Assembly: GCF_019219095.1 (NCBI RefSeq)
Contig: NZ_JAHUWH010000007.1
Location: 230,760-294,759, forward strand
From: Acidovorax sp. sic0104
GTDB taxonomy: Bacteria > Pseudomonadota > Gammaproteobacteria > Burkholderiales > Burkholderiaceae_C
Direction of reading: 5' to 3'
DNA: 64,000 nt
In this document: piece by piece, positions 129 through 21,750 of the stretch
Position numbering within the stretch: the first letter of the stretch is position 1
Layout of the letters: the number at the start of each line of letters is the position of its first letter
The notes under the pieces: generated by a model
The model's database searches: none
Seen by the model: the letters and a program-made list of their open reading frames with translations, nothing else
What the model was told of the DNA's origin: nothing
Made by a program: the position numbers and the translations under genes

Positions 129-181
129 CCCAGTGGGCATCCTCCCACTGGGGGGTGATCCCGCGCACTTTCGAGGTACTC
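129..181 (+). promoter_or_regulatory. Bistable leader copy 1
   Basis: This is the first copy of the repeated structured leader. The 5' hairpin is nearly perfect, CCCAGTGGG pairing with CCCACTGGG. The 5' arm (GTGGG-c-ATC) can instead pair with GATCCCGC downstream, overlapping the sequence just before the ribosome binding site. The third helix around the RBS is weak here (CTT with AGG). Confidence 0.6.
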
Positions 182-934
182 ATGACACAACTCAATCACA
201 TGGTCCGCGCGCGGCCCATGACATCGGCTCAGCGCTGTGCGTCCTTCGCGACTCCAGACCCTGAGCCACACCGCGTCGTCCTTCCTGCCCAGGAATGGGT
301 CAGGATGGCTGGTGCGTACTGCGGCGATCGGCTCGCTGAGGCTGATGGAAAGTCCATCGTTGGCGTCAGGGCGATCGACCACCAGGGCTACCTCCATGCG
401 ATCTTCTCGGTGCTCCATGGCGGGTACTCCGGGGACTATCGGGCTGAGGGCTATCGGCTCGTGCCACCCGAGATGTTCGAGGGCGACACGGTCGAGTTCA
501 TTGACTGGCGGGATGCCCCAGCTATCCACGCCCGGCGACGTGGCGACTCCACGGGGCTGCTGGTGAAGGTCCAGGGAAAGATCCTGGTCTGCGCAAAGGC
601 AGTCCACTTCGTCCGTGATCTGCCTACTGTGCCGCCTCTTTCCGTTCAGGAGGCCAAGGCCCATGACGAGCAAAGCCGTTCGGCTGGTTGGCGTGCCATG
701 GGCTTTCGGGGAGCCTCCATCAGCTGGAGGGCCGTCAACGGGCACCCTGTGGTCATCTACGAGCACCCGCTGGAGATGAAGCGTATGGCCATCCTTTTTT
801 GGCGGGCGAATGGAGAAGTCCAGGAGTATGTCCTGCACAAGTCGCTTGAAGCGTCCATGTTTACCGCTCCGGTAGACACTGCGGCGCAAAAGGCGCTGGT
901 CCAAGAGGCGCCCGTCCAGATGGGGCTCTTCTGA
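182..934 (+). CDS. Hypothetical protein with C-terminal clamp-binding-like tail
   Basis: The product is a 250-residue soluble protein of unknown function. I chose ATG 182 because GAGG lies 6-9 bases upstream and the repeated leader ends directly before it; an in-frame GTG at 155 lies inside the leader hairpin. The middle of the protein is beta-rich, with no transmembrane segment or catalytic motif I recognise. The last five residues, QMGLF, resemble the QLxLF-type peptide that docks on the replicative sliding clamp, which suggests but does not show a replication or repair link. It is the first gene of the leader-controlled array. Confidence 0.75.
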   Translation: MTQLNHMVRARPMTSAQRCASFATPDPEPHRVVLPAQEWVRMAGAYCGDRLAEADGKSIVGVRAIDHQGYLHAIFSVLHGGYSGDYRAEGYRLVPPEMFEGDTVEFIDWRDAPAIHARRRGDSTGLLVKVQGKILVCAKAVHFVRDLPTVPPLSVQEAKAHDEQSRSAGWRAMGFRGASISWRAVNGHPVVIYEHPLEMKRMAILFWRANGEVQEYVLHKSLEASMFTAPVDTAAQKALVQEAPVQMGLF

Positions 935-1114
935 CCGAATCGGAGTCCTCGCGCAGCGAGGGCTTCCCCAAGAGCTTCTATAGGGAGATCTTCGGGAAGT
1001 GAAGGATTGACACCACCGGCTTGCCCAGTGGTTCACATGCTCTGAGCTAGAGAGCCAAAACACCTAGCAGTTCAATTCACATGCCGCTTCGCGCGGCCCA
1101 TCAATCTCAATCAT

Positions 1115-1179
1115 CCCAGCGGGTCCCAACGTCCCGCAGGGACGTGGTGCCTGTTGGATATTTTCATAAGGCATCACAC
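1115..1179 (+). promoter_or_regulatory. Bistable leader copy 2
   Basis: The H1 hairpin is CCC..GCGGG with CCCGC..GGG. H2 pairing is weak in this copy (several G-U pairs). H3 is clear: TGCCT pairs with AGGCA, and that 3' arm contains the AAGG ribosome binding site of the large methylase-helicase gene. Confidence 0.55.
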
Positions 1180-4100
1180 ATGAAGATCAATCCGATCGCA
1201 GCGGCTTGTTTGTGGCTCCCAGGGTTTGACCCTGACGAGGATCCCAACCAAGTCCCGGGGCTGCTCAGTGCTCCAATCGCCCCCGTCGCTTCATGCGTCG
1301 TGGAGACGATAGCGGCCGCTGCCCCAAGCGCCCCGGTCAAGCCGAAATGGCCGCGTCTCTTCGCCGACGTGCATGCCCAGCTGGGCGGTACGGTGGTGAA
1401 GTTCGACGCGAACATCGAGGCGATCACGCTCCTTCGGGAGCTGGAGAAAGAAGAACGTGATCCCACCGCAAGGGAACGCGAGGTACTGAACCGCTACACA
1501 GGTTGGGGTGGTCTGCCTCAGGCATTCAACCTCAAACAAAGCGATACCGCGTGGCTCGACCGCTCAGCCAAGCTCAAGGAATTCTTGAGTGCGGAAGAGC
1601 ACGCGTCAGCCATGGCCAGCACAACCGACTCTCACTACACCCCTGTGGAGGTGGTCGAGGCGATGTGGGCAATGGCGCAGCGGGTAGGCTTCACGGGCGG
1701 TCGAGTCCTTGATCCGTGCACCGGCACGGGCTTCTTCTTGGGCGCCATGCCCCAGGAGGTGGCCGAGCGAAGTACGGTGACCGCCGTGGAGGTAGACAAC
1801 GTCTCGTCGCGCATTTCCAAGAAGCTCTACCGGCAGTACGGGGCGCGGGTCCTCAACAAGGGATTCGAGCAAGCGAATCTGCCGGCAGATAGCTTCGATT
1901 GCGTCATCAGCAATGTCCCGTTTGGCCAGACCAAGGCTGCAGAGGTTCGCAATGTCCCGTTCGCGCGATTCAACCTGCACAACTACTTCATCGCTCGTTC
2001 GTTGGAGCTGGTTAGGCCTGGCGGCCTGGTCGTGATCCTCACGTCCAGTTTCACCATGGACTCCATGCGGGATGGCGCGCGAGCGTATCTGGCTGGCCAG
2101 GCTGAACTGGTCGGGGCCATTCGCCTTCCTGATTCAACGTTTAAGAAAATGGCCAATACGTCGGTAACGACGGATGTCCTCATCTTCAAGCGTCGAGTTG
2201 GAACGACGGAGCACGACAAGTCCTGGATCAACGTCACCGCGCTGCCAAAGGGCTCACCTATCAACGGGAACGCCTGGTACAGCTCAAATGCCGTTACGGT
2301 TAATTCCTGGTTCGCCAGGAACCCCGGAATGGTAGTTGGCAAGCTGACCCACGAGTCAAGCGCTTACGGAGCACGGACTATCTGCGCCTTCGAAGGCGAC
2401 TTGAAGCAAGCGCTTCAGGAGCGCATAGCGAACCTCCCCGAGGGTATCTATGCACCACGCCCCCAGTCGCAGCGAAAGCCGCGTAGCGAGGCGTTCCGTA
2501 TTGGTGAGGGTGTGCGTCCTGGGCTAACGCTGATCGAAGGCAAGGTCTGCGAGGTTGACGACGGTCTGGCCCGCCCTGTCCAGGCATCCGAGAAGGTGCT
2601 AGCGCGGATGGCGGGAATGATCGGAATACGCGATGCGGTGCGACGCCTCATTGCAGCGCAAGCTGTGAATGCAGACGAAGCAATGCTTAGCGTTTACCGT
2701 ACCGCACTGTCTATTGCGTACGACTTGTATGTCGCGCAATGGGGCTACCTGGGTGACAAACTGAATCGAGCAGCGTTCAAGGCCGACCCCGATCTGCCGC
2801 TGCTCATGTCGCTGGAGTGCCGGGTGGAGGGAAGCAAGTCCGTTGATAAGGCGGCAATCTTCTACCACCGCACGGTGGGAGCAGCCAAGAAGGTGTCCCG
2901 GTGCGAGAGCACTCAGGACGCCCTTCAGGTGTCGCTCTCCGAGTTCGGACGGGTGGTTCCCGAGCGGATTGGCGGGCTGGTTGGAATGGGCCAGGAAGAG
3001 GTGATGGCGGACCTTGAGCAAAAGGGCTGTGTGTTCCTCGATCCGGCGACCATGAACTGGGCGGTGGAGGATGAGTACCTCTCGGGCGATGTCCGGGAGA
3101 AGCTCATCCTCGCGGAGGACGCTGGCGAGCGCTTTGAGCGCAACGTAGCGGCCTTGCTGGCAGTTCAGCCGAAGAAGCTCACGCCAGCCGAGATTACGCC
3201 GCGCATCGGGTCCACCTGGATCCCTGCGCCGGTCTACGCGCAGTTCTTGGACGAAATCCTGGAGGTGGGCGAAGGTCCCTTCAGCAGGCATACCGTGGAA
3301 GTGAACCTCGCGGTGGGCACGTGGTCGGTTGATTCGCCCTACAGCTGTGAAACCAGCGTGGCGGCAACGCAGACCCATGGGACTCGTCGTGTGCCTTGTG
3401 GGCGACTGATGGAGCTTGCCCTCAACCAGCAGGAGCCATCGGTGTACGACAGCAAGAGCGGCGGCAGTAGGGTGGCAAACACCACCGAGACCATCGCCGC
3501 GCGGGAGAAGCTCTACGAACTGAGGGCGAAGTTTAAGGAATGGGTGTGGTCGGACGAAGCCAGAGCAGAGATGCTCGCCGAGGCCTACAACACTCAGTTC
3601 AACAGCTACGTTGTACGGCGATACAACGGGGAGCACCTGGTGCTTCCTGGCATGTCGCAGGCATTTACCCTCAGAGCGCACCAAAAGGACGCCGTCTGGC
3701 GGCTTCTCTCGACGAACCACAACGTCCTGTTGGCCCACGCGGTGGGGGCAGGAAAGACCTTGGAGATGATCTGCGGAGCGATGGAGTTGCGGCGCGTAGG
3801 CAGGGCAACCAAGCCCATGCTAACGATCCCCACACATCTGATCGAACAGGTGTCGCGTGAGTTCATGGAGGCTTACCCAGGCGCGAACATTCTGGTCGCG
3901 TCGAAAGATGACCTCCATGGCGACAAGCGCCGAACGATGCTGTCACGTATTGCCACCGGCAACTGGGATTGCGTAATCATCACTCATTGCAGTTTTGAAC
4001 GCATCCCTATGGGCGCCCAGTACATGAGGGAGCACATTGCAGAAGAGGTGGAAAAGATTGAAGATGCAATTCGTGAACGCCACGGCGAACCGAAAAGTAA

Positions 4101-6105
4101 TAAGATCGTGAAGCAACTGGGGAGAGCCAAGAAGTCCTGGGAGGCGCGTCTTAAAAGGCTTTCAAGCGAATCGAAGAAGGACAACGTTCTAACTTTCGAA
4201 GAGCTTGGAGTTGACTATATTCTGTGCGACGAAGCGCACAGTTTCAAAAGTCTCTATAAGTTCACGAAGATGGACAGGATCGCTGGTTTGCCCAATCAGG
4301 ACTCTCAGCGGGCCTTCGACATGTTCGTGAAGTGCAGGCACATCAATCGTCTTCGTGGCGATGGAACGGGCGTCGTCCTCGCGACCGCAACGCCCATCAG
4401 CAATGCTTTGGGAGAGGCATATACCATGCAACGCTTCCTTCAGGAGGCGGCCCTGGAGGCAAAGGGCGTGGCGAACTTCGATGCATGGGCTGGCAACTTC
4501 GGTGAGTCCGTCACAAGCCTTGAACTGGCGCCTGACGGCGGCGGATATCGGGTCTCGACGCGATTTGCGAAGTACACCAACGTGGTGGAGATGATGAAGA
4601 TGTTCCGGCAGGTGGCCGACATCAAGACATCCGCAATGTTGGATCTGCCTGTTCCAAGGTGCCGTCGCGAGACGGTCATCGCGGACGGTGGCCCTGCACT
4701 GAAGGCGTACGTTGAGACGCTGGTGAAGCGTGCTGAGAGGCTCCGCGCCGGAGGGGTGAAACCGAAGGATGACAACATGCTGCTCGTGACTGGTGACGGT
4801 CGCAAGGCGGCGTTGGACCTCCGGATGGTGGACCCTTTCGCCGAGGAGACTGAGGTGAACAAGATCTCGCTGTGCGCCAAGGGGGTGTTCAAGAAGTGGA
4901 CCGAATCGGCAAGCTTCAAGGGTACCCAGTTGGTGTTCTCGGATTTCGGCACGCCGAAGAACGACGGGAGATTCGACGCCTACAACGCCTTGCGTGACAA
5001 GCTGGTCGAATTGGGAATCCCTCGCCACGAGGTCGCCTTCATCCATGAATTCGTTACTGACGCGGCAAAGGCCGCGCTGTTCCGGGACGTGAGAGCGGGG
5101 GTGATCCGGGTTGTTTTGGGAAGTACCTCGATGCTGGGGACCGGTACAAACGTGCAGGAGCGTCTGTGTGCCATATGGCACATGGACGTTCCTTGGCGCC
5201 CTTCTGATATCGAGCAACGCGAAGGCCGGATCTTGCGCCAGGGCAACCAGTGCGAAGAGGTCTCGATCTACTACGTGGTAACGCGTGGTTCGTTCGACGT
5301 GTACATGATGAACTTGGTGGAGTCAAAGCAACGGTTCATCGAGCAGTTGATGCGGGGTGATGAAACGCTTCGCACACTGGACGAGGCATCTGAGGCGCTG
5401 ACGTACGCTGAGATCAAGGCGCTGGCCAGTGGCAATCCTGCGGTGATTGAGCGATGTGGGGTCGAGTCAGAACTCGCCAAGCTCACCATGCTGCATGACA
5501 AGTGGCAGCGAGACCGGCAAGCAAACCTCTGGAACTTGAAGCACCTGCCCTCGCGCATTGCTTCTGAGGAACAGAAGATTGCTCGCATGTCGGCCGACAC
5601 GCTCACCGTCGCGGGCGCACCAGCCGGAACCTACGCCTTCAAGGTAGGAGGATTCGGCGATGTACCTGCGAGCGATGCTGCGAAAGCGTTTAAGCAGTTC
5701 GTGCAATCCTTGCCCCGTAGCAGTGGGCCGGTTGTAATCGCGACATACCGAGGCCTGGACCTGTTGGTTGAGCGGGACGCCACCTCCCAATTGGAGGGCT
5801 GGCTCAAGGGCTCGATGGAGTACACGCTCACCATGGAGAAATCCTGGGGAAGCGTGCTCAACTCCGTCGATACCCTGCTCGATGGGCTGGCGTCGCAGAC
5901 GAAGCAATTGCAACGCGGTGTGGAGCGCCTGCGCGCACAGTCGAAGGATCTTGGCCGAGAGGTCGAGACACCCTTTCCTAAGCTGGAGCGGCTTGAGTTC
6001 CTGCAGCGTCGAAAGATTGAGCTGGATACCATGCTCGATCTCAATGTGGGGGATCTGTCTGCAGTGGACGAATCGGCCTTGGCCGAGGAAGCTGTTGGAG
6101 CCTGA
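1180..6105 (+). CDS. DarB-like fused N6-DNA methylase / SNF2-type helicase
   Basis: This very large protein (1641 residues) joins a DNA adenine methyltransferase to a superfamily 2 helicase, the layout of phage P1 DarB and of large plasmid and phage polyvalent proteins. The methylase part shows a SAM-binding motif DPCTGTGFF (about 177-185) and a catalytic motif SNVPFG in place of NPPF (about 243-248). The helicase part has Walker A AHAVGAGKT (about 852-860), DEAH (about 1018), LATATPISN (about 1067) and QREGRILRQGN (about 1346). ATG 1180 follows AAGG and the leader; ATG 1081 lies upstream inside leader sequence and is less likely. Relatives are packaged or transferred anti-restriction proteins, so a role in protecting incoming DNA is likely but inferred. 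Confidence 0.9.
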   Translation: MKINPIAAACLWLPGFDPDEDPNQVPGLLSAPIAPVASCVVETIAAAAPSAPVKPKWPRLFADVHAQLGGTVVKFDANIEAITLLRELEKEERDPTAREREVLNRYTGWGGLPQAFNLKQSDTAWLDRSAKLKEFLSAEEHASAMASTTDSHYTPVEVVEAMWAMAQRVGFTGGRVLDPCTGTGFFLGAMPQEVAERSTVTAVEVDNVSSRISKKLYRQYGARVLNKGFEQANLPADSFDCVISNVPFGQTKAAEVRNVPFARFNLHNYFIARSLELVRPGGLVVILTSSFTMDSMRDGARAYLAGQAELVGAIRLPDSTFKKMANTSVTTDVLIFKRRVGTTEHDKSWINVTALPKGSPINGNAWYSSNAVTVNSWFARNPGMVVGKLTHESSAYGARTICAFEGDLKQALQERIANLPEGIYAPRPQSQRKPRSEAFRIGEGVRPGLTLIEGKVCEVDDGLARPVQASEKVLARMAGMIGIRDAVRRLIAAQAVNADEAMLSVYRTALSIAYDLYVAQWGYLGDKLNRAAFKADPDLPLLMSLECRVEGSKSVDKAAIFYHRTVGAAKKVSRCESTQDALQVSLSEFGRVVPERIGGLVGMGQEEVMADLEQKGCVFLDPATMNWAVEDEYLSGDVREKLILAEDAGERFERNVAALLAVQPKKLTPAEITPRIGSTWIPAPVYAQFLDEILEVGEGPFSRHTVEVNLAVGTWSVDSPYSCETSVAATQTHGTRRVPCGRLMELALNQQEPSVYDSKSGGSRVANTTETIAAREKLYELRAKFKEWVWSDEARAEMLAEAYNTQFNSYVVRRYNGEHLVLPGMSQAFTLRAHQKDAVWRLLSTNHNVLLAHAVGAGKTLEMICGAMELRRVGRATKPMLTIPTHLIEQVSREFMEAYPGANILVASKDDLHGDKRRTMLSRIATGNWDCVIITHCSFERIPMGAQYMREHIAEEVEKIEDAIRERHGEPKSNKIVKQLGRAKKSWEARLKRLSSESKKDNVLTFEELGVDYILCDEAHSFKSLYKFTKMDRIAGLPNQDSQRAFDMFVKCRHINRLRGDGTGVVLATATPISNALGEAYTMQRFLQEAALEAKGVANFDAWAGNFGESVTSLELAPDGGGYRVSTRFAKYTNVVEMMKMFRQVADIKTSAMLDLPVPRCRRETVIADGGPALKAYVETLVKRAERLRAGGVKPKDDNMLLVTGDGRKAALDLRMVDPFAEETEVNKISLCAKGVFKKWTESASFKGTQLVFSDFGTPKNDGRFDAYNALRDKLVELGIPRHEVAFIHEFVTDAAKAALFRDVRAGVIRVVLGSTSMLGTGTNVQERLCAIWHMDVPWRPSDIEQREGRILRQGNQCEEVSIYYVVTRGSFDVYMMNLVESKQRFIEQLMRGDETLRTLDEASEALTYAEIKALASGNPAVIERCGVESELAKLTMLHDKWQRDRQANLWNLKHLPSRIASEEQKIARMSADTLTVAGAPAGTYAFKVGGFGDVPASDAAKAFKQFVQSLPRSSGPVVIATYRGLDLLVERDATSQLEGWLKGSMEYTLTMEKSWGSVLNSVDTLLDGLASQTKQLQRGVERLRAQSKDLGREVETPFPKLERLEFLQRRKIELDTMLDLNVGDLSAVDESALAEEAVGA

Positions 6106-6125
6106 TACCATCCATCAACAAAGCA

Positions 6126-6195
6126 CCAGCAGGCCCCGAAAGGGGCTTGCTGGCGGCTTTCCGAAGGGAACTGTTTCAGCGGGCCTTTCTGAAAG
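6126..6195 (+). terminator. Terminator-like hairpin plus CTTTCC/GAAAG hairpin
   Basis: A 12-bp stem (CCAGCAGGCCCC with GGGGCTTGCTGG, GAAA loop, one G-U pair) follows the large gene by 20 bases. It is followed by a second hairpin whose arms begin CTTTC..AGG and end CCTTT..GAAAG (6157-6195). The same pair of hairpins recurs in other intergenic spaces of the array. There is no long T-run, so termination efficiency is uncertain. Confidence 0.5.
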
Positions 6196-6234
6196 TCGAT
6201 TTGATGCAGAGGCTGTGCCTTTGCTCAATTTCCC

Positions 6235-6257
6235 AGCTGGGGAATTCAAACAATCAG
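6235..6257 (+). repeat. 23-bp intergenic repeat, copy 1
   Basis: A 23-base block beginning AGCTGGGGAATTC and ending CAATCAG is identical to 8766-8788. Both copies sit 50-80 bases upstream of a leader hairpin, so they belong to the same intergenic module. Confidence 0.8.
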
Positions 6258-6312
6258 CACCACGCCTCACCTGAGGCATTTCATCAAGCGGCATCACTGC
6301 TGCTTTTATCCA

Positions 6313-6370
6313 CCCACGCGGGCACTGCTCCCGCATGGGAGTGGGGCTTGCGATTTCAATCGGAGGTTCC
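6313..6370 (+). promoter_or_regulatory. Bistable leader copy 3
   Basis: H1 pairs CCCA.GCGGG with CCCGC.TGGG. H2 pairs CGCGGGC with GCTTGCG further down. A third small hairpin, CGATT with AATCG, abuts the GGAGG ribosome binding site. Confidence 0.6.
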
Positions 6371-6595
6371 ATGTATCTGGCGTTTGCGCACCCCACGCGC
6401 GCTTCCCGCGCACCATCAGGTTTCGTTCGTGCACATGACTTGGCCAAACAGTACAAGGCTGACGGCTGCATTGCTGACTTTCGCGTGGACTCGTGCCACA
6501 AGCGGGGCCGTGTGATCACGTTGAAGAACGAATCTGGATGGAGTCCCTACCCCTTGTTCGTTGAGTATCCATCGCAGGAAGAGCAACCGAACTAG
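6371..6595 (+). CDS. Small hypothetical protein
   Basis: The product is a 74-residue protein of unknown function, preceded by a strong GGAGG site and leader copy 3. It is basic in the middle and has no membrane segment or known motif. Its own leader and the lack of overlap with neighbours argue that it is a real, separately controlled gene lying between the two methylase-type genes. Confidence 0.65.
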   Translation: MYLAFAHPTRASRAPSGFVRAHDLAKQYKADGCIADFRVDSCHKRGRVITLKNESGWSPYPLFVEYPSQEEQPN

Positions 6596-6651
6596 CGGCC
6601 TCAACTCCGCACGCAGGGTTCTGCGCCAGTTGGCGCAATTTCAATTTTTCA

Positions 6652-6710
6652 CCCAGCGGGGCCTCCTTTCCCGCTGTGGTTGGTGGTCCCGCGTCTATCA
6701 GGAGACCATT
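6652..6710 (+). promoter_or_regulatory. Bistable leader copy 4
   Basis: H1 pairs CCCAGCGGG with CCCGCTG.GG. H2 is strong: GCGGGGCC with GGTCCCGC (8 bp, one G-U). H3, GTCT with AGAC, places the CAGGAG ribosome binding site in a 6-base loop. This is one of the clearest copies for mutually exclusive pairing. Confidence 0.7.
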
Positions 6711-8788: not shown

Positions 8789-8818
8789 TATTACTGCTCG
8801 TTAGAGCGTCTTTTTCAA

Positions 8819-8876
8819 CCCGGGTGGGCATCGCTGCCCACGGGCCGGTGCACATCCAACATTCTGGAGATGCACC
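8819..8876 (+). promoter_or_regulatory. Bistable leader copy 5
   Basis: H1 has the long inner stem GTGGGCA with TGCCCAC. H2 pairs GGGTG with CATCC, extended past one mismatch. H3 pairs TGCA-c-ATC with GATGCA, enclosing the CTGGAG ribosome binding site. Confidence 0.65.
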
Positions 8877-9663: not shown

Positions 9664-9720
9664 CGGTAGCTGACCGTGCCGTCCTGGCGATTCAGCAATC
9701 ACGCGGCGAATGCCGAATTT
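9664..9720 (+). repeat. CGGTAGCTGACCG intergenic element
   Basis: A palindromic core CGGTAGCTGACCG is followed by TGCC, a variable stretch and a CAGCA..GGCGAA..GCC block leading into the leader. Related copies lie at 15156, 15674, 18191 and 20575. Confidence 0.65.
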
Positions 9721-9724
9721 TCAA

Positions 9725-9784
9725 CCTGCCGGGTGCTTGTGTCCCGGGGGGGGCCGTGCCTGGCGATTTCTTTAAGGAGATGTC
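9725..9784 (+). promoter_or_regulatory. Bistable leader copy 6
   Basis: H1 pairs CCGGG with CCCGG. H2 pairs GCCGGGTGC with GTGCCTGGC over 9 bp. H3 is weak in this copy. An AAGGAG ribosome binding site precedes the ATG. Confidence 0.65.
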
Positions 9785-10087: not shown

Positions 10088-10170
10088 ATCGCCAGTGCGC
10101 CGAGTCCCAGACTTGGCGCGCTTTGTCCCTGCGAAAGGCTCTCCAGACCAGTTGAGCCGCTATTTTTCAA

Positions 10171-10239
10171 CCCCTCGGCGGGCGCTACTGGCCCCTGGTG
10201 GGGGAGCGCCTGCCAACCGACCCATTGGAGACAGACAAC
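10171..10239 (+). promoter_or_regulatory. Bistable leader copy 7
   Basis: H1 pairs GGGC with GCCC inside CCCC/GGGG. H2 is a 10-bp helix, GGCGGGCGCT with AGCGCCTGCC. H3 pairs CCAA with TTGG next to the GGAG ribosome binding site. Confidence 0.7.
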
Positions 10240-11114: not shown

Positions 11115-11270
11115 GGTGGCGCGACTGGGGGGATCCGCCCGAAAGGGCAGGGTACCCCTGCCACAGCCCCTAGTTCGCCGCTCTGAGCGCCATTGGCGCT
11201 CGCTTGGGCGGTCCTAGCGGGCATGCAACAGCGCGTATTGAAGCGCGCGCACCCTGAAACCTTCAAAACA

Positions 11271-11331
11271 CCGCAACGCGGGCACTCTGTAGCCTCCCGG
11301 GGCCGGTGCTCGCCATCCTTAGGAGATCACC
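11271..11331 (+). promoter_or_regulatory. Bistable leader copy 8
   Basis: H1 is irregular (GGC with GCC inside CC/GG). H2 is a 9-bp helix, GCGGGCACT with GGTGCTCGC. H3 pairs TCCT with AGGA, so the ribosome binding site itself is in the stem. Confidence 0.6.
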
Positions 11332-13655: not shown

Positions 13656-13862
13656 AGATCTTTTCTTTCTTCGGTGCTTTGGGTTTCAGGGTCAAAGCGA
13701 TAGTTCACAATGTCCCCATTGATCAGCATGTTGGATTCGGTACAGTTCTCAAAGATACAGCCGATCCGGGCATTGGTGGCTTTTGAAGCTTGTATGGGGC
13801 ATGTAATTGCTTAACTATCGGCGCCTCTCTCAATTAATCAGAAACGCACGCACAAGGAATGC

Positions 13863-14462: not shown

Positions 14463-15441
14463 TCCCAAATGCTCTAACGTGATGTGTTCAGCAATATACC
14501 AGCAAGTTGGGATGGCGCCTTTAATCCTCTTTGCATCCATTGTCGCGAAGGCGAACGCGAATGCCCGTTTCCGGCCGAATTCTGCCGCACAAGCTCATGG
14601 CTTACGAGCCAACACGCGCTGAGGGCTGAGTTCAAGCAACCAACATTTCGAACGGATTCGAGTCTCTTAAACCGAGGTCAATGTATTTACCCGTTAACTC
14701 ATCTGGGTCCCCACAAGCGCAAAAAAACGCTCTCTGAAAGTCGCAAAACACTCACTGAGGATCGTCCGTGACGACCCGTCAGACAGGGCGTGCCCCACCA
14801 GCAATGGCAAATGCGCTTGCTCGAACCTCCTCAAGAAATACCGTTCTTTCCCACTAGCTAGTTGAGCCTTGCACTGTAGAACCGAAGCCCGGCACCTCCT
14901 TGGGGCAATGCAGCTTAAGCCAAGGCTGTTATGAAGGTTTGGCTAACCGTTTGGGATGTGGTACCGCTCAGGACCGTTGCGGCTCCGTGACGCCTCGGGC
15001 TTCTGAACAGAAGCGCCCAAACGAAGTGGAAACTGTCCCGCCAGGCTAAATCTGGGGCACAATGCCTGCCGTGGACCCAAGGCGGTCGGATGGCATTGCA
15101 AGGCCAACCGGCTAGTACCCTCGGATCCTCCTAGCAGCCGCATGGCTGTGGTGAGCGGTAGCTGGCCGTGCCTTTGTGCGAAACAGCATCACAGGCCTGC
15201 GGCCTCCACCTTCGGTGGTTCCGGCTCCCACCAGGGCGAAGATCGGATCTTCACGCGTGAGGCGCTTGCCAGAACGACGTCCTAACACTCCACCATTGAA
15301 CCCGGACCACAGTAGGGTCGGCAATCAGTAGGTCGCGCGCGCCTCCGGCACGTCCGCCTGTTGAATTGGATCGGGTGCACGGGGGCGATGAGGACGGGAA
15401 CAGTCGCATCGCACTACAACGAGCCGCGAGACGTGGCTCAA
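14463..15441. other. Gene-poor spacer with orphan module fragments
   Basis: I see no convincing gene in this roughly 1-kb stretch. The left part is moderately AT-rich and resembles the island. At 15156-15186 it contains a CGGTAGCTGGCCG element like those upstream of leaders elsewhere, followed by a CCACC/GGTGG hairpin but no gene, so it looks like a decayed array unit. Confidence 0.55.
15156..15186 (+). repeat. CGGTAGCTGGCCG intergenic element (orphan)
   Basis: This is the same palindromic core and TGCC continuation as at 9664, 15674, 18191 and 20575, but no leader hairpin and gene follow directly. Confidence 0.6.
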
Positions 15442-15510
15442 CGGCCTACCGGGCCTCGTGGCCAGAGGCCGAGCCGCCTTTTGGTGAGGTCCGACTGGCA
15501 CATAGTGTTC
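15442..15510 (+). promoter_or_regulatory. Orphan bistable leader (no gene)
   Basis: CGGCCT pairs with AGGCCG around an inner GGCC/GGCC stem, and the 5' arm GGGCCTC can alternatively pair with GAGGTCC 30 bases downstream. This is the same geometry as the 16 gene-linked leaders, but the sequence after it runs into the next hairpin with no credible reading frame. Confidence 0.45.
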
Positions 15511-15573
15511 GAATGCTCCGAAGGCCTGCAGGTGTGAAGTTCCACTTCGCAGGCAACCACCAACGAATTGCAT

Positions 15574-15634
15574 CCGAGCCTCAACACGAGGCTCGGTTGC
15601 TTTCCAAAGCGTCGCCACTGGGCGTTCTGGAAAG
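15574..15634 (+). terminator. Terminator-like hairpin plus CTTTCC/GGAAAG hairpin
   Basis: CCGAGCCTC pairs with GAGGCTCGG over a 5-base loop, followed by TTGCTTTCC. The second hairpin (15600-15634) pairs CTTTCCA with TGGAAAG at its base. Confidence 0.5.
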
Positions 15635-15673
15635 TAAAGCTTTGAGCCCCTGCGTACTGCGGACTGTTTGATA

Positions 15674-15740
15674 CGGCAGCTGGCCGTGCCCCCCCAACGG
15701 GAGGGCGACTCAGCGTTCATCCGGCTCTTGCCGATCTCAA
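15674..15740 (+). repeat. CGGCAGCTGGCCG intergenic element
   Basis: The palindromic core CGGCAGCTGGCCG and TGCC are followed by an ACTCAGCGTTCA block, directly upstream of leader copy 9. Confidence 0.65.
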
Positions 15741-15795
15741 CCCTGGCGGGCCTCGTTGCCCAAGGGCAGGTGCTCGCCGTTCCACGAGGAATGAA
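15741..15795 (+). promoter_or_regulatory. Bistable leader copy 9
   Basis: H1 pairs CCCT..GGGC with GCCC..GGG. H2 pairs GGCGGGC with GCTCGCC. H3 pairs TTCC with GGAA, the ribosome binding site lying beside and within it. Confidence 0.65.
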
Positions 15796-16038
15796 ATGCC
15801 CCCCAACCCAGTAAAGCCAAAAGTCTTTGTCAGTGCGTCCTCGGTGCAGGTCGGCGATACGCTGTGCTTCGCCAATCCACCGCAGGATGTCGTTGTCGAG
15901 GAGATCAGCCACGCTCGCAGCGATGGCTCCGTAGGCTTCCATGCCAATGACGGCACGTGGAGTAGCTTCTACAAGCCTCTGGACCGCCTACGCGTGCGGC
16001 GTGCGCCGCCCTGTCAGGTAGCTCCTTCGGCCCTTTAG
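15796..16038 (+). CDS. Small hypothetical protein
   Basis: An 80-residue protein, beta-rich with a segment around QVGDTLCFANPP that resembles small SH3-like or cold-shock-sized folds; no specific family is recognised. The start follows a GAGGA site and leader copy 9. Confidence 0.65.
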   Translation: MPPNPVKPKVFVSASSVQVGDTLCFANPPQDVVVEEISHARSDGSVGFHANDGTWSSFYKPLDRLRVRRAPPCQVAPSAL

Positions 16039-16185
16039 CAGCGGGCAACGTTGGCGCCGGCAAACGTCATTTTGCCGCGAGGAGAATTCGAACGCCAGCC
16101 CACCGCAAGACGCGGGCGGCTGCAACGGTGCTGGCCGACGCCCAGTCCGGGTACCAGCGATTCAACGGCAACTCGCCGAAACCAA

Positions 16186-16245
16186 CCCTGACGGGCGACC
16201 ACGCCCCAAGGGCGCAGGTGCCTGTCGATCTCATAGGAGAAAGAC
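16186..16245 (+). promoter_or_regulatory. Bistable leader copy 10
   Basis: H1 pairs CCCT.CGGGC with GCCC..AGGG. H2 pairs GACGGGCG with TGCCTGTC, using G-U where other copies have G-C. H3 pairs TGTC with GACA around the AGGAG site. Confidence 0.65.
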
Positions 16246-16962
16246 ATGGAAAGATTCAACAAGCACAACTCGGAATCGGTCATCGCAGCCGCTCGCGTGG
16301 CAATGCAGGTTCTTGAGGGAATCCGGGCCACCCACCCCGATCTGGTAGCGGACAACATGCCGGCCAACTGGGGCATGAACCGCCTGCGCTCCGCACTGCC
16401 CGTTGCCGAAACTGCGGCACGGGGTGCGCCCAGCGCCATCACTGCGCCGGTACGGCAGTTCGTGTACATCCTCGCGGAGTTCTTCTGGGACGACGACAGT
16501 TACGGTGAGGACCTGCCAGTCGCAGTGCTCTATCGGGTTGGAGCCCAAACAGTGAGAACCATCGACGAAGTCGCGGGGCTCGTTACCTCAGGGATGCTCG
16601 CAGAAGCCTCCGTTGCAATCCCCGATTGCGACAAGGCTTGGCTCAGCAAAGTCGCTTTCACCAGCGAGAACAAACTGGCGGAAGTGCCGGGTTTCTTTGA
16701 CCCACATAGCGACTGGGTGGTCTACCTTGGCGACGTGGCCGATATGGAGGTTGACGACCAGCGTGCAACATATGCCGAAGCGTGCGAGATCTACACGCCG
16801 CGCATTGAGCGCGAGGGCGGCCACTCAGCTGTTGACCTACGCCCTGACGCAGACTTGGGCCTTACCTGGGTCGCTGCAGGCAGAACTTCGGGCTGGCAAC
16901 TGGGGGGCTATCTCCAGGCCTGGCATCAGCTGCGGGAGCAAATCACTAACGCACTGATGTGA
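16246..16962 (+). CDS. Hypothetical protein
   Basis: A 238-residue acidic, soluble protein with no recognised domain. The start follows AGGAG and leader copy 10. It has its own leader and no coupled downstream gene. Confidence 0.75.
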   Translation: MERFNKHNSESVIAAARVAMQVLEGIRATHPDLVADNMPANWGMNRLRSALPVAETAARGAPSAITAPVRQFVYILAEFFWDDDSYGEDLPVAVLYRVGAQTVRTIDEVAGLVTSGMLAEASVAIPDCDKAWLSKVAFTSENKLAEVPGFFDPHSDWVVYLGDVADMEVDDQRATYAEACEIYTPRIEREGGHSAVDLRPDADLGLTWVAAGRTSGWQLGGYLQAWHQLREQITNALM

Positions 16963-17040
16963 AGCGCCACGAGATGCACTGTGGGCTGGTAGCTTCACCC
17001 ATTCGGCCCGAGCTGAGGCGGGCAAACCCCCTTTCATAAA

Positions 17041-17099
17041 CCCCTGTCGGGCACCTGCCGCCCCTGGGGTGCGTTGCTCGACTCTTCAAGGAGATTGAC
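17041..17099 (+). promoter_or_regulatory. Bistable leader copy 11
   Basis: H1 pairs CCCC..GGGC with GCCC..GGGG. H2 pairs GTCGGGCA with TGCTCGAC, a sequence unlike the other copies but still fully paired. H3 follows the change: TCGA with TTGA plus CTC with GAG around AAGGAG. Confidence 0.7.
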
Positions 17100-17714
17100 A
17101 TGAGCAACGCAAACCAACAAGGCCTGACTTGTGACGTCGATAAGACCTCACCATTGGGTTACGGATCGAAAGAAGACCCACTGGGCATCGAGGAAGCAAG
17201 GGCGAAGATCGGCGACGACTTCACTCACTTCGCTGCACTCGTTGCCTCGCAAGTACAGCTTCCAGCTGGTCATTCGTTTCGCAACGACTGTCCTGCCCTG
17301 GGTGTTAGGCATAACCTGAGCTGGTGGAATGGCTGTGCAGTTCGCTCCGCTGATTCCGGCTTGGGGGTCCATGCTGGCCCTCAGGTAGTGGATGCGGCCG
17401 ACGAGTACCAGCTGATGATCGAGGCGCGGTTCTTTCACCCTGAGCTTCATTTCCGGGAAAAGGGCCGCACGGCTCGGGTCACGCGGAGATACAACCCCGG
17501 CTATGGCGCAGCGCTTTGGGTAGACCAAGGGCGCCCGTTCTGGGGCATGAACAAGTCACTGATCGAGGGAGAGCGGTTCTTGTCCCGGGTGAGCTCGGTA
17601 GAAGTCCTGGCTGAGGAGGTTGTCCGCCGCCTCAATGCAGCGATTTCATTGCGCATGGTTCGGGGAGCGTCGAAGCCAGCATTGGCTACTGCAGCTTTCG
17701 GGAGGGCGCGATGA
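17100..17714 (+). CDS. Hypothetical protein
   Basis: A 204-residue protein of unknown function. ATG 17100 follows AAGGAG and leader copy 11. The central part is beta-rich with several tryptophans and histidines, and no motif was identified. It overlaps the next gene by four bases (ATGA), so the pair forms an operon. Confidence 0.75.
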   Translation: MSNANQQGLTCDVDKTSPLGYGSKEDPLGIEEARAKIGDDFTHFAALVASQVQLPAGHSFRNDCPALGVRHNLSWWNGCAVRSADSGLGVHAGPQVVDAADEYQLMIEARFFHPELHFREKGRTARVTRRYNPGYGAALWVDQGRPFWGMNKSLIEGERFLSRVSSVEVLAEEVVRRLNAAISLRMVRGASKPALATAAFGRAR

Positions 17715-17965
17715 ATGAATGGGTAGCCACGAGGGAAGACCAAGTGGGCGGTCACGTTGCGCTCGCTGTGGTGCCGTATCACCCACGCTGGGGCATCTCC
17801 GAGGCAGTGAGGATCCAGCACAACCCTCGGGCGATGTGTTTGCACTGTGATGACGGGGGGCCACGCCATTTCGTTGCCTTCGGGGGACGTGACGGCGCCA
17901 CGGCCATCGTGGATCAACTGCTCGGACCCTTGCTACCAAGATATCTCGCTGGCATCGCCAAATAG
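17711..17965 (+). CDS. Small hypothetical protein
   Basis: An 84-residue protein coupled to the gene upstream by an ATGA overlap. The segment around MCLHCDDGG contains a CxxC pair that could bind a metal, but no partner pair is obvious. Function is unknown. Confidence 0.6.
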   Translation: MNEWVATREDQVGGHVALAVVPYHPRWGISEAVRIQHNPRAMCLHCDDGGPRHFVAFGGRDGATAIVDQLLGPLLPRYLAGIAK

Positions 17966-18155: not shown

Positions 18156-18190
18156 GATTTCACGTCACAGCCTAGCGCTGTGGATTGATG

Positions 18191-18246
18191 CGGTAGCTGA
18201 CCGCGCCTTTGGCGATACAGCATTCAACGGCGAAAGCCATTTTCAA
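18191..18246 (+). repeat. CGGTAGCTGACCG intergenic element
   Basis: The core CGGTAGCTGACCG leads to ACAGCATTCAACGGCGAAAG and CCATTTTC, directly upstream of leader copy 12. It is nearly identical to 20575-20632. Confidence 0.7.
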
Positions 18247-18311
18247 CCCTGACGGGCGCCGCATGCCCCACAGGGTCTAGGTGTCCGTCGCTTCTCTGGA
18301 GAACGGACGAT
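18247..18311 (+). promoter_or_regulatory. Bistable leader copy 12
   Basis: H1 pairs CCCTG and GGGC with GCCC and CAGGG. H2 is a 10-bp helix, GACGGGCGCC with GGTGTCCGTC. H3 pairs CCGT with ACGG, looping the GGAG ribosome binding site. Confidence 0.75.
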
Positions 18312-18977
18312 ATGAGCAAGAAACAAGGTGGCAAGGCCCATGCTGCTAGCTGCCCAAACTGCAGCAGGGAGGTCGAGGACGATAAAGACACGGGGTGTGT
18401 GCTGGCGGCTCTGGTACAGGTGATTCGCGATCGCGAGGAGCTGACCGAGGAGCAGGTCCTCGCGATCCATGCATCGTGCGACGCAGACGCTCTGTGGGAG
18501 GCGTTGGCCCCGGTGATAGACCAGCTCCAAGCTGGTGGGTTCGCCTGGAACACACCTCACGGCGAAGCCAGCGTTTCCGACCAACCCACTCCATCTATCG
18601 ATCCCTTGCCCGCGTCGCAACTCCCCATGGAGTTGGAGTGGACCATGGGTGATGACGGGCCAGAACTTGGTGTGAGCGCCCATGGCTACTTCGTTGTGAA
18701 GCCCCACCTCGATGTAGGGCTGATGAACAAGGTGGACCCGATGGAGTGTTGGGGGATCAGCCCCACGCTGGCGAAGTTGATCGACGACCTCAATTCGGCT
18801 CTGCCCGAGGCCCTGGAAGACGCCATCAACGCAGGATGCCTGCGCCTGCAACAGGCGGCGGGTATCCGTGATGGGGGCTACGCCGGCATCTACTTCAGCG
18901 ACGCCGCCAAGCGGGTCCCAGTGTCTGAGGTCCTCGCGGAATACATCGTTCGCGACGTCAACACTACCCGCGAATAG
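18312..18977 (+). CDS. Hypothetical protein with N-terminal zinc-ribbon-like pair
   Basis: A 221-residue protein. Near the N-terminus it has CPNC and a later single cysteine. A helical stretch (about 40-85) and an acidic centre follow. It is controlled by leader copy 12 and is monocistronic. No family was recognised. Confidence 0.75.
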   Translation: MSKKQGGKAHAASCPNCSREVEDDKDTGCVLAALVQVIRDREELTEEQVLAIHASCDADALWEALAPVIDQLQAGGFAWNTPHGEASVSDQPTPSIDPLPASQLPMELEWTMGDDGPELGVSAHGYFVVKPHLDVGLMNKVDPMECWGISPTLAKLIDDLNSALPEALEDAINAGCLRLQQAAGIRDGGYAGIYFSDAAKRVPVSEVLAEYIVRDVNTTRE

Positions 18978-19016
18978 CAAGACCCAACAGCAATGCTGCG
19001 GTAGGTCAACAACCAA

Positions 19017-19085
19017 CCCATGACGGGCACCCGCTGCCCATTGTGGCCGGGCACCCGTCTTCTTACCAAAAGAGGAAACGGAAAT
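19017..19085 (+). promoter_or_regulatory. Bistable leader copy 13
   Basis: H1 has the inner stem GGGCA with TGCCC. H2 pairs GACGGG with CCCGTC. H3 pairs CCGT with ACGG, with an inner TTCTT/AAGA pairing that hides AGAGGA. Confidence 0.7.
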
Positions 19086-19739
19086 ATGAGCAAGCGCAAG
19101 GACCAGGCAGAACAGGCGGACAAGGCCTTCGCTGACTACGACTTCGGAAGTAGCGTCGAGGTGACGGACACGTCTGGCTGGGAGTACACCACCCCCGGCG
19201 ATGAGCGGAAGCGAAAGGTTTTCGTGGAAACTGAGCGTGAAGACGACGGGCCGGCACCTCGCTCGGTGCTGACCTTCACCGTCCGATTTGACCCCGAATC
19301 GGGCTCTTTGGTCGAGGCGACCGCCATCGACGGGAACGGGCAGGTCTGGGGAGCGATGTCTGATCGAGCCGCTATCCCGCAAACGAATGGGGGTTCCGCA
19401 CCATGTCCCGAGATCGCTGCGAGTGCTATGCGCGAGTACAAGGTACTGGGGGCGCACGAAAACGGCAACTTCTTTGAGATTCGCGTCGAAGCGACTGATC
19501 CAGTGCACGCATTTGGCGCGGCAGCGCTGAGGTTGCAAGCGGCCGATGGTGAGGGGGATCCGGAGTTTCACGTGGCGCTTCTCGCGGACGTTCGTTACGA
19601 ACTGCCCGGTGATTCAGTGGTTTCTATGACGACGGTGCTCGACGCTGAACAGGCAGAGGTGTTTGGAATCGGACCTCAAAGACCATCGAACCAGCGGGCG
19701 GTTGAAGCGGTATGCCAATATGGGCATAATTCCCGATGA
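19086..19739 (+). CDS. Hypothetical protein, paralogue of the gene at 21751
   Basis: A 217-residue acidic protein. ATG 19086 follows GAGGAAACGG and leader copy 13. Residues about 10-95 align with the product at 21751: a KAF.DYDFG block, a W.Y..G.ER.R.VFV block and TVRFDPESG are shared. The pair therefore arose by duplication and each kept a leader. The function of this family is unknown. It overlaps the toxin gene downstream by four bases. Confidence 0.75.
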   Translation: MSKRKDQAEQADKAFADYDFGSSVEVTDTSGWEYTTPGDERKRKVFVETEREDDGPAPRSVLTFTVRFDPESGSLVEATAIDGNGQVWGAMSDRAAIPQTNGGSAPCPEIAASAMREYKVLGAHENGNFFEIRVEATDPVHAFGAAALRLQAADGEGDPEFHVALLADVRYELPGDSVVSMTTVLDAEQAEVFGIGPQRPSNQRAVEAVCQYGHNSR

Positions 19740-20116
19740 TTCACCCGCCCCGCAAACCCATCAAATGGGTGGGTTCATCAAAGAAGGATCTCAAGGCGAT
19801 GCCCGAGGACGTTCAAGACGTTTTTGGGTTCGCTCTAGGGCTGGCCCAGTCTGGGCTGAAGCACGATGCGGCCAAGCCGCTGAAGGGCTTTGGCTCGGCC
19901 GGTGTATTGGAGGTCGTGGAGTGCGATGAAGGTGGCACCTATCGCGCCGTGTACACGGTGCGGCTGGCCCATTGGATCTATGTTCTGCACTGCTTCCAGA
20001 AGAAATCGACCAAAGGCGTCGAAACACCCAAGCCGGATGTTGATCTCATCAGGTCAAGGTTGTTCGACGCGCAGGAAGACCATGTCGCTTGGTCCAAACA
20101 AGCAAAAGGAAACTGA
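19736..20116 (+). CDS. HigB-like (RelE superfamily, Gp49-type) toxin
   Basis: The 126-residue basic product resembles the phage Gp49/HigB toxin family: an N-terminal KPIKWVGSSKKDLKAMP block, the GSAGVLEV strand, YRAVYTVRL and the C-terminal HCFQKKSTKG core typical of these mRNA interferases. It is directly followed by an HTH antitoxin gene, the toxin-first order usual for HigBA. The ATGA overlap with the unknown gene upstream places the module under leader copy 13. Confidence 0.88.
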   Translation: MIHPPRKPIKWVGSSKKDLKAMPEDVQDVFGFALGLAQSGLKHDAAKPLKGFGSAGVLEVVECDEGGTYRAVYTVRLAHWIYVLHCFQKKSTKGVETPKPDVDLIRSRLFDAQEDHVAWSKQAKGN

Positions 20117-20119
20117 AAA

Positions 20120-20440
20120 ATGACTGTCGAAATTGAAGTTGGCAGCACCAACGTGTACGCCGACCTCGGTTACACGGACGCCGCTGGAATGCAGCGGAAG
20201 GCCACACTGGCGGCAGAAATCGCACGGGCCATCAAGGCTCGTCGGCTTACCCAGGAAGCCGCAGCCGCCTTGCTTGATATCGATCAGGCGAAGGTGTCTA
20301 AGATCACTCGCGGCCAGTTTCGCGGAGTGAGTGAAGCGAAGATGCTTGAGCTAATTGCAAGGCTTGGCCACGATGTCACTATCACCGTGGGCAAGACCAA
20401 GCGGCAAGGCTCGGGCAAGATCAAGCTAGCGTTCGCCTAG
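20120..20440 (+). CDS. HigA-like XRE antitoxin
   Basis: The 106-residue product has a helix-turn-helix from about residue 40 to 80 (LTQEAAAALLDIDQAKVSKI), the HTH_37 type found in HigA partners of Gp49-like toxins. It should neutralise the upstream toxin and repress their promoter. The start lies 3 bases after the toxin stop, with an AGGAAA site inside the toxin end. Confidence 0.88.
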   Translation: MTVEIEVGSTNVYADLGYTDAAGMQRKATLAAEIARAIKARRLTQEAAAALLDIDQAKVSKITRGQFRGVSEAKMLELIARLGHDVTITVGKTKRQGSGKIKLAFA

Positions 20441-20537: not shown

Positions 20538-20574
20538 CAGATTCTTCCCTCCAGCATTTTGCTGGTGGATTGAT

Positions 20575-20632
20575 CGGCAGCTGGCCGTGTCATTCTGGCA
20601 AATCAGCATTCCAAGGCGAAAGCCATTTTCAA
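20575..20632 (+). repeat. CGGCAGCTGGCCG intergenic element
   Basis: The core CGGCAGCTGGCCG and the AGGCGAAAGCCATTTTC block match 18191-18246 and directly precede leader copy 14. Confidence 0.7.
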
Positions 20633-20693
20633 CCCTGACGGGCATCTTTGCCCTGGGGGCGAGGGTCCGTCTCTTCTTCGAAGGACGCGGCAA
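20633..20693 (+). promoter_or_regulatory. Bistable leader copy 14
   Basis: H1 has the inner stem GGGCA with TGCCC. H2 pairs GACGGGC with GTCCGTC. H3 pairs CCGT with GCGG and CTTC with GAAG, which contains the ribosome binding site. Confidence 0.7.
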
Positions 20694-21215
20694 ATGACAA
20701 AAACTCGGTTCGATACGGAAGCGGAGGCCTGCAGGCACAAGTGCTCGCACCAACTGCACCAAATGTCCGCAGAACCTATAGGGGGCGGCAAGTGGGGTCT
20801 GGTCTATCCGATTGAGAGCCACATCACGGTCCATGACGGCGCGCCTGACGGGATGCGACAACATAGTCTCCAATCTGGCATGACCACTCGCAAGGCGTGT
20901 AATGTTTCGGGCACGGAGCTGCCAGGAATACCTACGGCGAGTCTGAAGGCCCGTGTGCTCGACACGGTGTATGAGGAGAAGTACCTCCGGGTACTCGACG
21001 GGTTCCAGCTATTGGCGGCAGAGCACCTGAAGACCAATGTCGGCATCATCGTCGTCAATGGGGACTTCGGGCGAGGCCACTACCAAGCAGCGATCGCAGA
21101 GGCTGAGAGAGCAGGGTTGAAAACCCAGCGATTCTATGTTTATGCGGAGTCCGCGACTTACAGCGGCAGGGACGTTTGCGTAACTCTCTTCGCGGACATC
21201 TGGCCTACGGCGTAG
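20694..21215 (+). CDS. Hypothetical protein
   Basis: A 173-residue protein under leader copy 14. The C-terminal half has an alternating strand-helix pattern (GIIVVNGDFG.GHYQAAIAEAERAG), suggesting an alpha/beta fold, but no catalytic motif is clear. Function is unknown. Confidence 0.7.
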   Translation: MTKTRFDTEAEACRHKCSHQLHQMSAEPIGGGKWGLVYPIESHITVHDGAPDGMRQHSLQSGMTTRKACNVSGTELPGIPTASLKARVLDTVYEEKYLRVLDGFQLLAAEHLKTNVGIIVVNGDFGRGHYQAAIAEAERAGLKTQRFYVYAESATYSGRDVCVTLFADIWPTA

Positions 21216-21248
21216 GCAGATCAGCAGACAACAGGCACACGCCTATAA

Positions 21249-21312
21249 CCCTCCCGATGGGCACCAGACGCCCGCTGGGCAGGTGTCCGTCTCAACTCTA
21301 GGTGAACGGAAA
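21249..21312 (+). promoter_or_regulatory. Bistable leader copy 15
   Basis: H1 pairs GGGC with GCCC. H2 is a 10-bp helix, GATGGGCACC with GGTGTCCGTC, with a U-G pair where others have C-G. H3 pairs CCGT-c-TCA with TGAACGG around AGG. Confidence 0.75.
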
Positions 21313-21645
21313 ATGATAGTGAACGTGCAAACCAACAAAGGATCGCTCGACCTGGGCGAATCCTTGGAAACTCAGTCGAGCGCTCCAACTGCTCTAGCGG
21401 AAGGTGAGACTCGCTGGATCGGAAATTGGGAAGTCAGAAATTTTCACGGCTACTACCAGTCTCGCGAGGGCGGTACTGGGCCGTGGAAGTTTCACATCTC
21501 TAGTTTTGATTCGAGTTCAACCGGTCAATGCGGTTATTGCAGCTTGGTATTGGCGGGTGGCGGCCGCCTGGATGTCCCAATCGATGCGAGGGACCAAATC
21601 ATGGTGCTCGGCGTGAGGTACGGGCGCAAGAACTGGGCCCATTGA
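21313..21645 (+). CDS. Small hypothetical protein
   Basis: A 110-residue protein under leader copy 15. ATG 21313 is preferred over an in-frame start at 21283, which lies inside the leader. It is predicted beta-rich with two close cysteines (QCGYC). No family was recognised. Confidence 0.7.
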   Translation: MIVNVQTNKGSLDLGESLETQSSAPTALAEGETRWIGNWEVRNFHGYYQSREGGTGPWKFHISSFDSSSTGQCGYCSLVLAGGGRLDVPIDARDQIMVLGVRYGRKNWAH

Positions 21646-21688
21646 CCAAGTTGTCTCTCTCGGTTTTCGGCTGAGGGATCTTTCATCA

Positions 21689-21750
21689 CCCTGACGGGCA
21701 CGAGTTGCCCACAGGGCCGGTGTCCGTCTCTTTCACAAAGGAAACGGTAA
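21689..21750 (+). promoter_or_regulatory. Bistable leader copy 16 (best example)
   Basis: H1 is textbook: CCCTG with CAGGG and GGGCA with TGCCC. H2 pairs GACGGGCAC with GTGTCCGTC. H3 pairs CCGT with ACGG and TCTTT with AAAGGA, which contains the ribosome binding site. Only one of H1 or H2, and one of H2 or H3, can form at a time. Confidence 0.78.

Follow-up and report, generated by a model that had tools for sequence, protein, structure and literature searches.

The first 22 kb of the window, by which we mean the whole 64,000-nucleotide stretch of Acidovorax sp. sic0104 DNA analysed here, carry sixteen copies of a leader of about 65 nucleotides that almost certainly represents a real class of mRNA leader, in which two competing sets of base pairs are kept while the sequence changes. 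The window corresponds to bases 230,760-294,759 of C77, a plasmid-like contig of 294,759 bases within a 5.82-Mb genome. All sixteen leaders lie on the + strand, where the original prediction had located them, and they have a common layout: CAACCC (or a variant of it); a hairpin (H1) with CCC:GGG, or a variant thereof, as closing pairs; a third arm (R); and, after a short linker, the Shine-Dalgarno sequence and the start codon. The array extends beyond position 129, with further leaders in the 20 kb upstream and elsewhere along C77.

Six blocks, alternately rich in C and in G, make up the leader: C1 (CCC), P (or G1), Q (or C2), G2 (GGG), R (or C3) and the ribosome site S (or G3), which is the region of the Shine-Dalgarno sequence and start codon. 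Three complementarities, each specific within its own leader, connect these blocks, namely P with Q (H1), P with R (H2) and R with S (H3). We folded 214 of 227 leaders, leaving out 13 in which a hairpin or a start codon was missing. In the closed fold, [C1[P Q]G2] + [R S], C1:G2 closed H1 in 198/214 leaders when P:Q was enforced, and R was paired with the ribosome region in 205/214. In the open fold, C1[P[Q G2]R]S, the enforced P:R helix enclosed a Q:G2 hairpin in 209/214 leaders, and C1 and S were free. Thus, as C1:G2 and R:S give way to Q:G2 inside P:R, the six blocks exchange partners as a whole. The open fold needs a gap of hairpin size between Q and G2, and a gap of at least 3 nucleotides is present in 176 of 212 leaders. 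Complementarity and predicted folding together indicate two mutually exclusive helices with a common arm, one of them over the ribosome site, which is the arrangement of a bistable translational leader. When the leader was checked for a riboswitch aptamer, the only positions in it to stand out were the C/G blocks and the CAA preceding H1.

To collect leaders we used R1, a covariance model of H1 alone, built from 36 seeds (three from the window, the others from its upstream neighbour and six plasmid stretches) that had been chosen beforehand on H1 and H2. The evidence for pairing comes from partner swapping and, for H1 only, also from counts of pair changes on an alignment. In the partner-swap test, each arm is compared with its own partner and with the partners of all other leaders, which preserves composition and the shared motif; the test includes no correction for phylogeny, and the redundancy filter was ungapped. 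Among the 116 R1 matches outside the seeds, H2 scored 20.75 with its own partners versus 14.69 (standard deviation (SD) 0.29) with permuted ones, and H3, in 114 of these matches, 14.80 versus 12.12 (SD 0.23), in both cases with 0/10,000 permutations reaching the observed value. The same was true of H3 in 87 leaders (15.86 versus 12.00, SD 0.27; 0/10,000), a set that was pruned by eye and whose selection score did not include H3. When the test was run on 213 leaders, which contain the 87 of the seed set and 24 further leaders picked on H1 and H2, z scores were 20.4 for H1, 29.8 for H2 and 13.3 for H3 with the Shine-Dalgarno core masked, versus -0.8 for the control pair P-S, -0.1 for P with codons 4-12, 1.5 for Q-R and 2.4 for Q-S. 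These results, together with the constrained folds, agree with the earlier claim of three helices with shared arms.

For H1, a MAFFT alignment of the 36 seeds contained 18 cells changed on both sides, versus 6.2 (SD 2.0) in shuffled alignments, and its covariation score was 0.197 versus 0.086 (SD 0.014); neither value was reached in 500 shuffles. The CCC:GGG base of H1 is nearly invariant and does not covary.

Leaders precede genes at a near-fixed distance from the start codon. In 115 of the 116 non-seed matches, the start codon of an open reading frame (ORF) of at least 40 amino acids lies 44-114 nucleotides from the start of the match (median 66). A start codon at 58-81 nucleotides was found for 107/116 matches versus 25.6% of 5,800 random positions, and one that also scored well (ATG and/or a Shine-Dalgarno sequence) for 97/116 versus 5.9%. 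Of 213 leaders, 199 had an H3 score of at least 10, and in 182 of these H3 overlaps the Shine-Dalgarno zone or the start codon. We applied an H1-only rule to the window and to four annotated plasmid stretches, excluding two fetched stretches and each stretch's first gene. Where more than 40 nucleotides separated a gene from the preceding one, the rule found a leader in 63 of 82 cases; where there was less room, in none of 16. The former count is a lower bound, because this rule misses window copies 2, 4 and 8, and the latter is partly geometric. The window genes starting at 10545, 17711, 19736 and 20120 overlap or abut the preceding gene and have no leader of their own. Moreover, 43 of the 126 leaders with an upstream ORF on the same strand (by a mechanical ORF call) start less than 30 nucleotides past its stop codon, which argues for action on each cistron. 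The original prediction of one leader per transcription unit was therefore wrong in detail: leaders stand one per gene or coupled gene group, that is, one per translational unit.

Folding energies favour the closed state. Over the 214 leaders, its median advantage in stability was 5.6 kcal/mol; without constraints, 170 had a closed and 22 an open energy minimum, and in the remaining 22 the minimum was of neither type. The ribosome site was more accessible in the open fold in 196/214. Among the window copies, folded with a start codon other than the actual one at 182 in the case of leader 1, eleven had a closed minimum, copies 7, 9, 10 and 12 an open one and copy 8 neither; compared with dinucleotide shuffles, their mean z was -2.1 (range -5.4 to +0.3).

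On the strength of sequence comparison and modelling, we consider it probable that the leader acts as a default-off translational switch coordinating genes of mobile elements (among them ssb, recT, nuclease and DNA methylase genes). The closed fold would be the default and would block initiation. Opening would proceed by R invading the H1 loop and displacing Q, and it might be favoured by a host-conserved factor, or by a ribosome already at S, with H2 then storing R. Translation would be the controlled step, the factor shifting the balance between the folds, and one such switch before most genes with room for it would place the establishment and maintenance genes of the element under joint control, irrespective of their promoters.

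Several observations weigh against this switch. With the H3-paired bases masked, the z score of H2 drops to 3.4; R is thus a single arm shared between two partners, and H2 and H3, which use largely the same bases of it, are not independent of each other. On the 36-seed alignment, the number of H1 pairs changed on both sides (2 versus 2.1 in shuffles) and of further pair types (10 versus 8.2; 64/500 shuffles) stayed at the shuffle level, since variation is confined to two inner pairs and the base hardly changes. The median energy difference makes many copies lopsided rather than bistable, and the four window copies with an open minimum are predicted to be open unaided. Neither a trigger nor a regulator shared by all carriers examined emerged. 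Finally, R often has a U-rich, terminator-like stretch behind it: the first five positions have a T fraction of 0.45-0.63, and at least six T in a row are found in 28 of 214 leaders.

This last feature, with clean cases such as GTGTCCCC followed by T7 in locus L079, would suit a transcription attenuator in which H2 and the U stretch form an intrinsic terminator, H1 serves as the antiterminator and H3 is secondary. However, the longest T run does not exceed 3 in 129/214 leaders, the loops of H2 have a median of 16 nucleotides and many leaders lie just behind a stop codon. Attenuation would also leave H3 without a role, although H3 matches R leader by leader outside the Shine-Dalgarno core, and we regard it as unlikely. 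We find it likewise doubtful that the leader is static, with H1 guarding the 5' end, H3 setting a low level of translation and H2 arising as a by-product of G- and C-rich arms. The prevalence of the H1+H3 minimum (170/214) and the fact that much of the H2 signal falls on bases shared with H3 are in line with this, but H2 is leader-specific beyond composition (z 29.8), whereas the P-S, Q-R and P-codon controls are flat, and the hairpin-sized gap between Q and G2, which the open fold requires, is kept.

An action at the level of DNA, with hairpins in transferred single-stranded DNA serving as promoters or loading sites, or with cassette recombination sites like the attC sites of integrons, seems very improbable to us. 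It would fit the approximately one element per gene, the structure kept under sequence change, the establishment-type genes and the single orientation (26/26 on C77; 10/10, 9/9 and 4/4 on three other plasmids). It would not explain the near-fixed distance to the start codon or the pairing with its surroundings. No sigma-70-like site was detected by a plain scan of the + strand of window positions 1-12000, and neither this 12-kb scan nor a count of TATAAT upstream revealed recognisable sigma-70 promoters before leaders. The attC core box GTTRRRY occurred in 7 leaders versus 14 in shuffled sequence; an integron attC array was rejected, as both boxes (RYYYAAC and GTTRRRY) were found in just 2/213. 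The translational switch, in which H1+H3 is the closed and H2 the open state, as first proposed for this DNA, is supported by the swap tests, the constrained folds and the near-fixed start-codon distance.

Outside this contig, the leader is found on beta- and gammaproteobacterial plasmids and other elements. In the window, R1 recovered 14 of the 16 leaders at an expectation value (E) of at most 10 in a search of ten loci; it missed copies 8 (11271) and 13 (19017), in which the pairings can be read by eye. In the own genome it gave at least 26 matches at E<=0.1, 26/26 on C77 and all on the + strand, a lower bound based on 150 of 2,350 first-look candidates. A DUF4942 relative is encoded in 57 plasmid records; in the six that were opened, the same leader stood upstream of genes, and among the listed gene starts from 1 (NC_007950) to 22 (NZ_CP027670) leaders per plasmid stretch were recognised by eye. 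Over whole plasmids, R1 matched 31 times in NZ_CP027670, 25 in NZ_CP065697, 16 in NC_007949, 10 in NZ_CP083939, 9 in CP079746 and 4 in NC_007950. These matches lay on one strand per plasmid, except two in NZ_CP065697 and three opposite-strand ones that overlapped a counted hairpin. As a separate observation, the leaders keep to one strand over whole plasmids, C77 included, though only 56-69% of ORFs of at least 100 amino acids do; this placement may reflect the polarity of transfer.

We also searched genome samples at three taxonomic levels, which overlap in at least two genomes and in which 16-20 candidates were scored per genome. R1 matches at E<=1e-4 were found in 17/299 genomes and 14/141 genera of the family, 22/300 genomes and 19/135 genera of the order, and 19/369 genomes and 19/272 genera of the class. 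Weak matches at the class level may be due to chance; each of four class-level loci inspected had at least two leader-like places before ORFs. In 16 of 20 further order- and class-level stretches, there were 110 R1 rows at E<=0.05, some of which are opposite-strand copies. Other routes were less productive: a megablast of plasmids at the DNA level found nothing, a protein search of genome contigs found a single distant locus only, and a scan for a single hairpin without the H2 requirement was unspecific. Two complete leaders in tandem before one gene were seen at L065:6133-6228 and, on the minus strand, at L061:12088-12183.

The leaders of the window are listed in Table 1. The array is interrupted at 11679-15700 by a region with minus-strand ORFs (658 and 225 amino acids) and no R1 match on the + strand, which may be inserted DNA.

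Table 1. Leaders of the window with the genes behind them, helices of copy 16, and radC RNA matches in genome G126 (R1, score of the H1 model in bits; minimum, type of predicted energy minimum)
Feature	Position	Strand	Gene(s) behind leader	R1	Remarks
Leader 1	123..181	+	182-934 (no Pfam family)	27.8	by eye, H1 strong, H3 weak
Leader 2	1109..1179	+	1180-6105 (N6-methylase and SNF2 helicase, Pfam)	25.7	H1+H3 minimum
Leader 3	6307..6370	+	6371-6595	38.7	R1 seed
Leader 4	6646..6710	+	6711-8597 (DUF4942, Pfam)	23.9	H2 GCGGGGCC/GGTCCCGC, from sequence
Leader 5	8813..8876	+	8877-9542	17.9	H3 seen; H1+H3 minimum
Leader 6	9719..9784	+	9785-10087	16.7	
Leader 7	10165..10239	+	10240-10548, 10545-11114 (thymidine kinase, Pfam)	17.1	H2-type minimum
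Leader 8	11265..11331	+	11332-11562	missed	H2 GCGGGCAC/GTGCTCGC by eye; predicted minimum neither fold
Leader 9	15735..15795	+	15796-16038	25.6	R1 seed; H2-type minimum
Leader 10	16180..16245	+	16246-16962	20.5	H2-type minimum
Leader 11	17035..17099	+	17100-17714, 17711-17965	15.2	H3 GTTGCTC/GAGCAAC extends to start codon
Leader 12	18241..18311	+	18312-18977	23.0	H2-type minimum
Leader 13	19011..19085	+	19086-19739, 19736-20116 (Gp49, Pfam), 20120-20440 (HTH_37, Pfam)	missed	pairings by eye
Leader 14	20627..20693	+	20694-21215	33.5	R1 seed
Leader 15	21243..21312	+	21313-21645	12.2	E 1.5
Leader 16	21683..21750	+	21751-22458	19.0	H1+H3 type minimum
Copy 16, H1	21689..21716	+			21689-21693 with 21712-21716, 21696-21700 with 21706-21710; sequence and fold
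Copy 16, H2	21693..21728	+			21693-21701 with 21720-21728; sequence and class-wide swap test
Copy 16, H3	21724..21747	+			21724-21727 with 21744-21747, adjoins ribosome binding site; sequence
G126 radC RNA matches	C111:592984-593133; C1:234919-259418				

Pfam families were recognised in 5 of 20 scanned proteins of the window (the N6-methylase/SNF2 helicase, DUF4942, thymidine kinase and the Gp49/HTH_37 pair). The last of these (19736-20440) resembles a toxin-antitoxin pair and closes the unit of leader 13. The DUF4942 protein (6711-8597) contains NPPF, a motif of N6-adenine methylases. Elsewhere on C77, leaders stand directly before the genes for RecT, SSB and two methylases, and on a Simplicispira plasmid before PD-(D/E)XK nuclease, RecT, DUF4942 and cytosine methyltransferase genes. 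Sets of this kind are typical of plasmid establishment. The main array on C77 starts about 12 kb beyond a gene for a TraI_2 relaxase.

The comparison of five leader-rich replicons (NC_007949 in part) yielded only the DUF4942 protein and a UvrD-like helicase as common to all of them; an AcaB-type gene was present in 3/5 at the clustering threshold, and its C77 copy matches Pfam AcaB below the cut-off. Among 30 replicon groups, no protein family occurred in more than 14, which is weak evidence of absence, since many groups are stretches of only 10-40 kb. With no family common to all carriers examined, we consider one plasmid regulator less likely than a factor of the host, the ribosome itself or an upstream module. 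With an antisense RNA in mind, CAACCC and a few related words were counted on both strands and were in excess on the leader strand.

The class is not modelled in Rfam. At the gathering score, no family matched the leaders of the loci scanned: there were no matches in the window, none in L010 and L012-L017, and only parts of group II introns in seven further loci. Permissive scans added only the DUF3085 RNA (RF02959, cut-off 40.6 bits) adjoining leaders. In the window it matched at 15674-15750 (30 bits, leader 9) and 20575-20642 (25.5 bits, leader 14), and the other window leaders had no match at E<=5; beside three further C77 leaders it reached 40.1, 36.6 and 34.9 bits, all under the cut-off. 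Among the 299 genomes of the family, matches at E<=0.001 occurred only in the window's own genome. In the five C77 copies, the 3' end of the model (..CAACCC..CGGG) falls on the first bases of the leader. However, the modelled hairpins lie upstream of the leader, and the model stops inside H1 and lacks H2 and H3. An upstream element of AGCTG with a later CAGC, possibly a pseudoknot, was seen in 37/202 upstream regions versus 3/202 of a reversed control (e.g., at 9644-9680, 18171-18218 and 20571-20602 of the window), and some examples are weakly matched by the DUF3085 RNA.

The radC RNA (RF01754, cut-off 40 bits), which is tabulated in PMC2864571, passed its cut-off six times in one genome, G126, and in none of the other 12 leader-bearing genomes. 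In three of the eight matches inspected in G126, the ACCC of a leader follows 12, 22 and 34 nucleotides past the end; another two overlap an R1 match, and the remaining three have none at E<=1. A gene with a RadC domain stands behind a leader in L132. Here too, the aligned helices are located upstream of the leader, and both P:R and R:S are absent from the model. From this upstream position, the DUF3085 and radC RNAs look like 5' neighbours of the leader in a minority of copies and not like the element itself.

Somewhat speculatively, these RNAs might be interchangeable upstream sensor modules of a replicon-wide system, in which large beta- and gammaproteobacterial plasmids and integrative elements would carry the six-block switch before nearly every uncoupled gene of their accessory regions. 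The arms would be re-drawn for each gene, only the pairing logic being inherited, and the whole set might fire together as the element enters a cell or is about to leave it. Regulons are usually recognised by a common DNA site or aptamer sequence, whereas these leaders share a pairing logic with nearly free sequence and are not caught by Rfam cut-offs. If the leader acts as the translational switch proposed here, dozens of genes per plasmid would probably be switched together by one RNA design. It would then be possible to approach the coordination of genes such as ssb, recT, nucleases and methylases in large conjugative and integrative elements, the two orphan motifs (radC and DUF3085) would have a likely frame, and the quantitative study of RNA folding could draw on hundreds of natural variants of a single strand-exchange switch.

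In the parts of the literature covered by our searches we found no description of such leaders, and several known systems resemble them in part. The metastable hairpins of type I toxin mRNAs, which sequester the Shine-Dalgarno sequence transiently during transcription (PMC6733600), are likewise short hairpins gating ribosome access, but they belong to a toxin mRNA and, as described there, form no replicon-wide set. The STAXI motif (RF01728) is also a repeated structured element, located near ssb, topoisomerase, antirestriction and integrase genes (PMC2864571), but it consists of tandem pseudoknots, and it had no match at cut-off in the loci scanned. The EGeRS of pLS20-family Bacillus plasmids, of which EGeRS1 spans 400-600 bp with several inverted repeats (PMC8708921), are similar, as far as their description allows comparison, in being repeated upstream of several establishment operons of a conjugative plasmid. 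Single-stranded DNA promoters differ in that they act on transcription. In macrolide attenuators such as that of ermC, alternative pairings of four segments hide or expose the Shine-Dalgarno sequence. The leader described here differs from this type in that arm 1, and not arm 2, pairs with arm 3, and in that one design precedes tens of unrelated genes per replicon.

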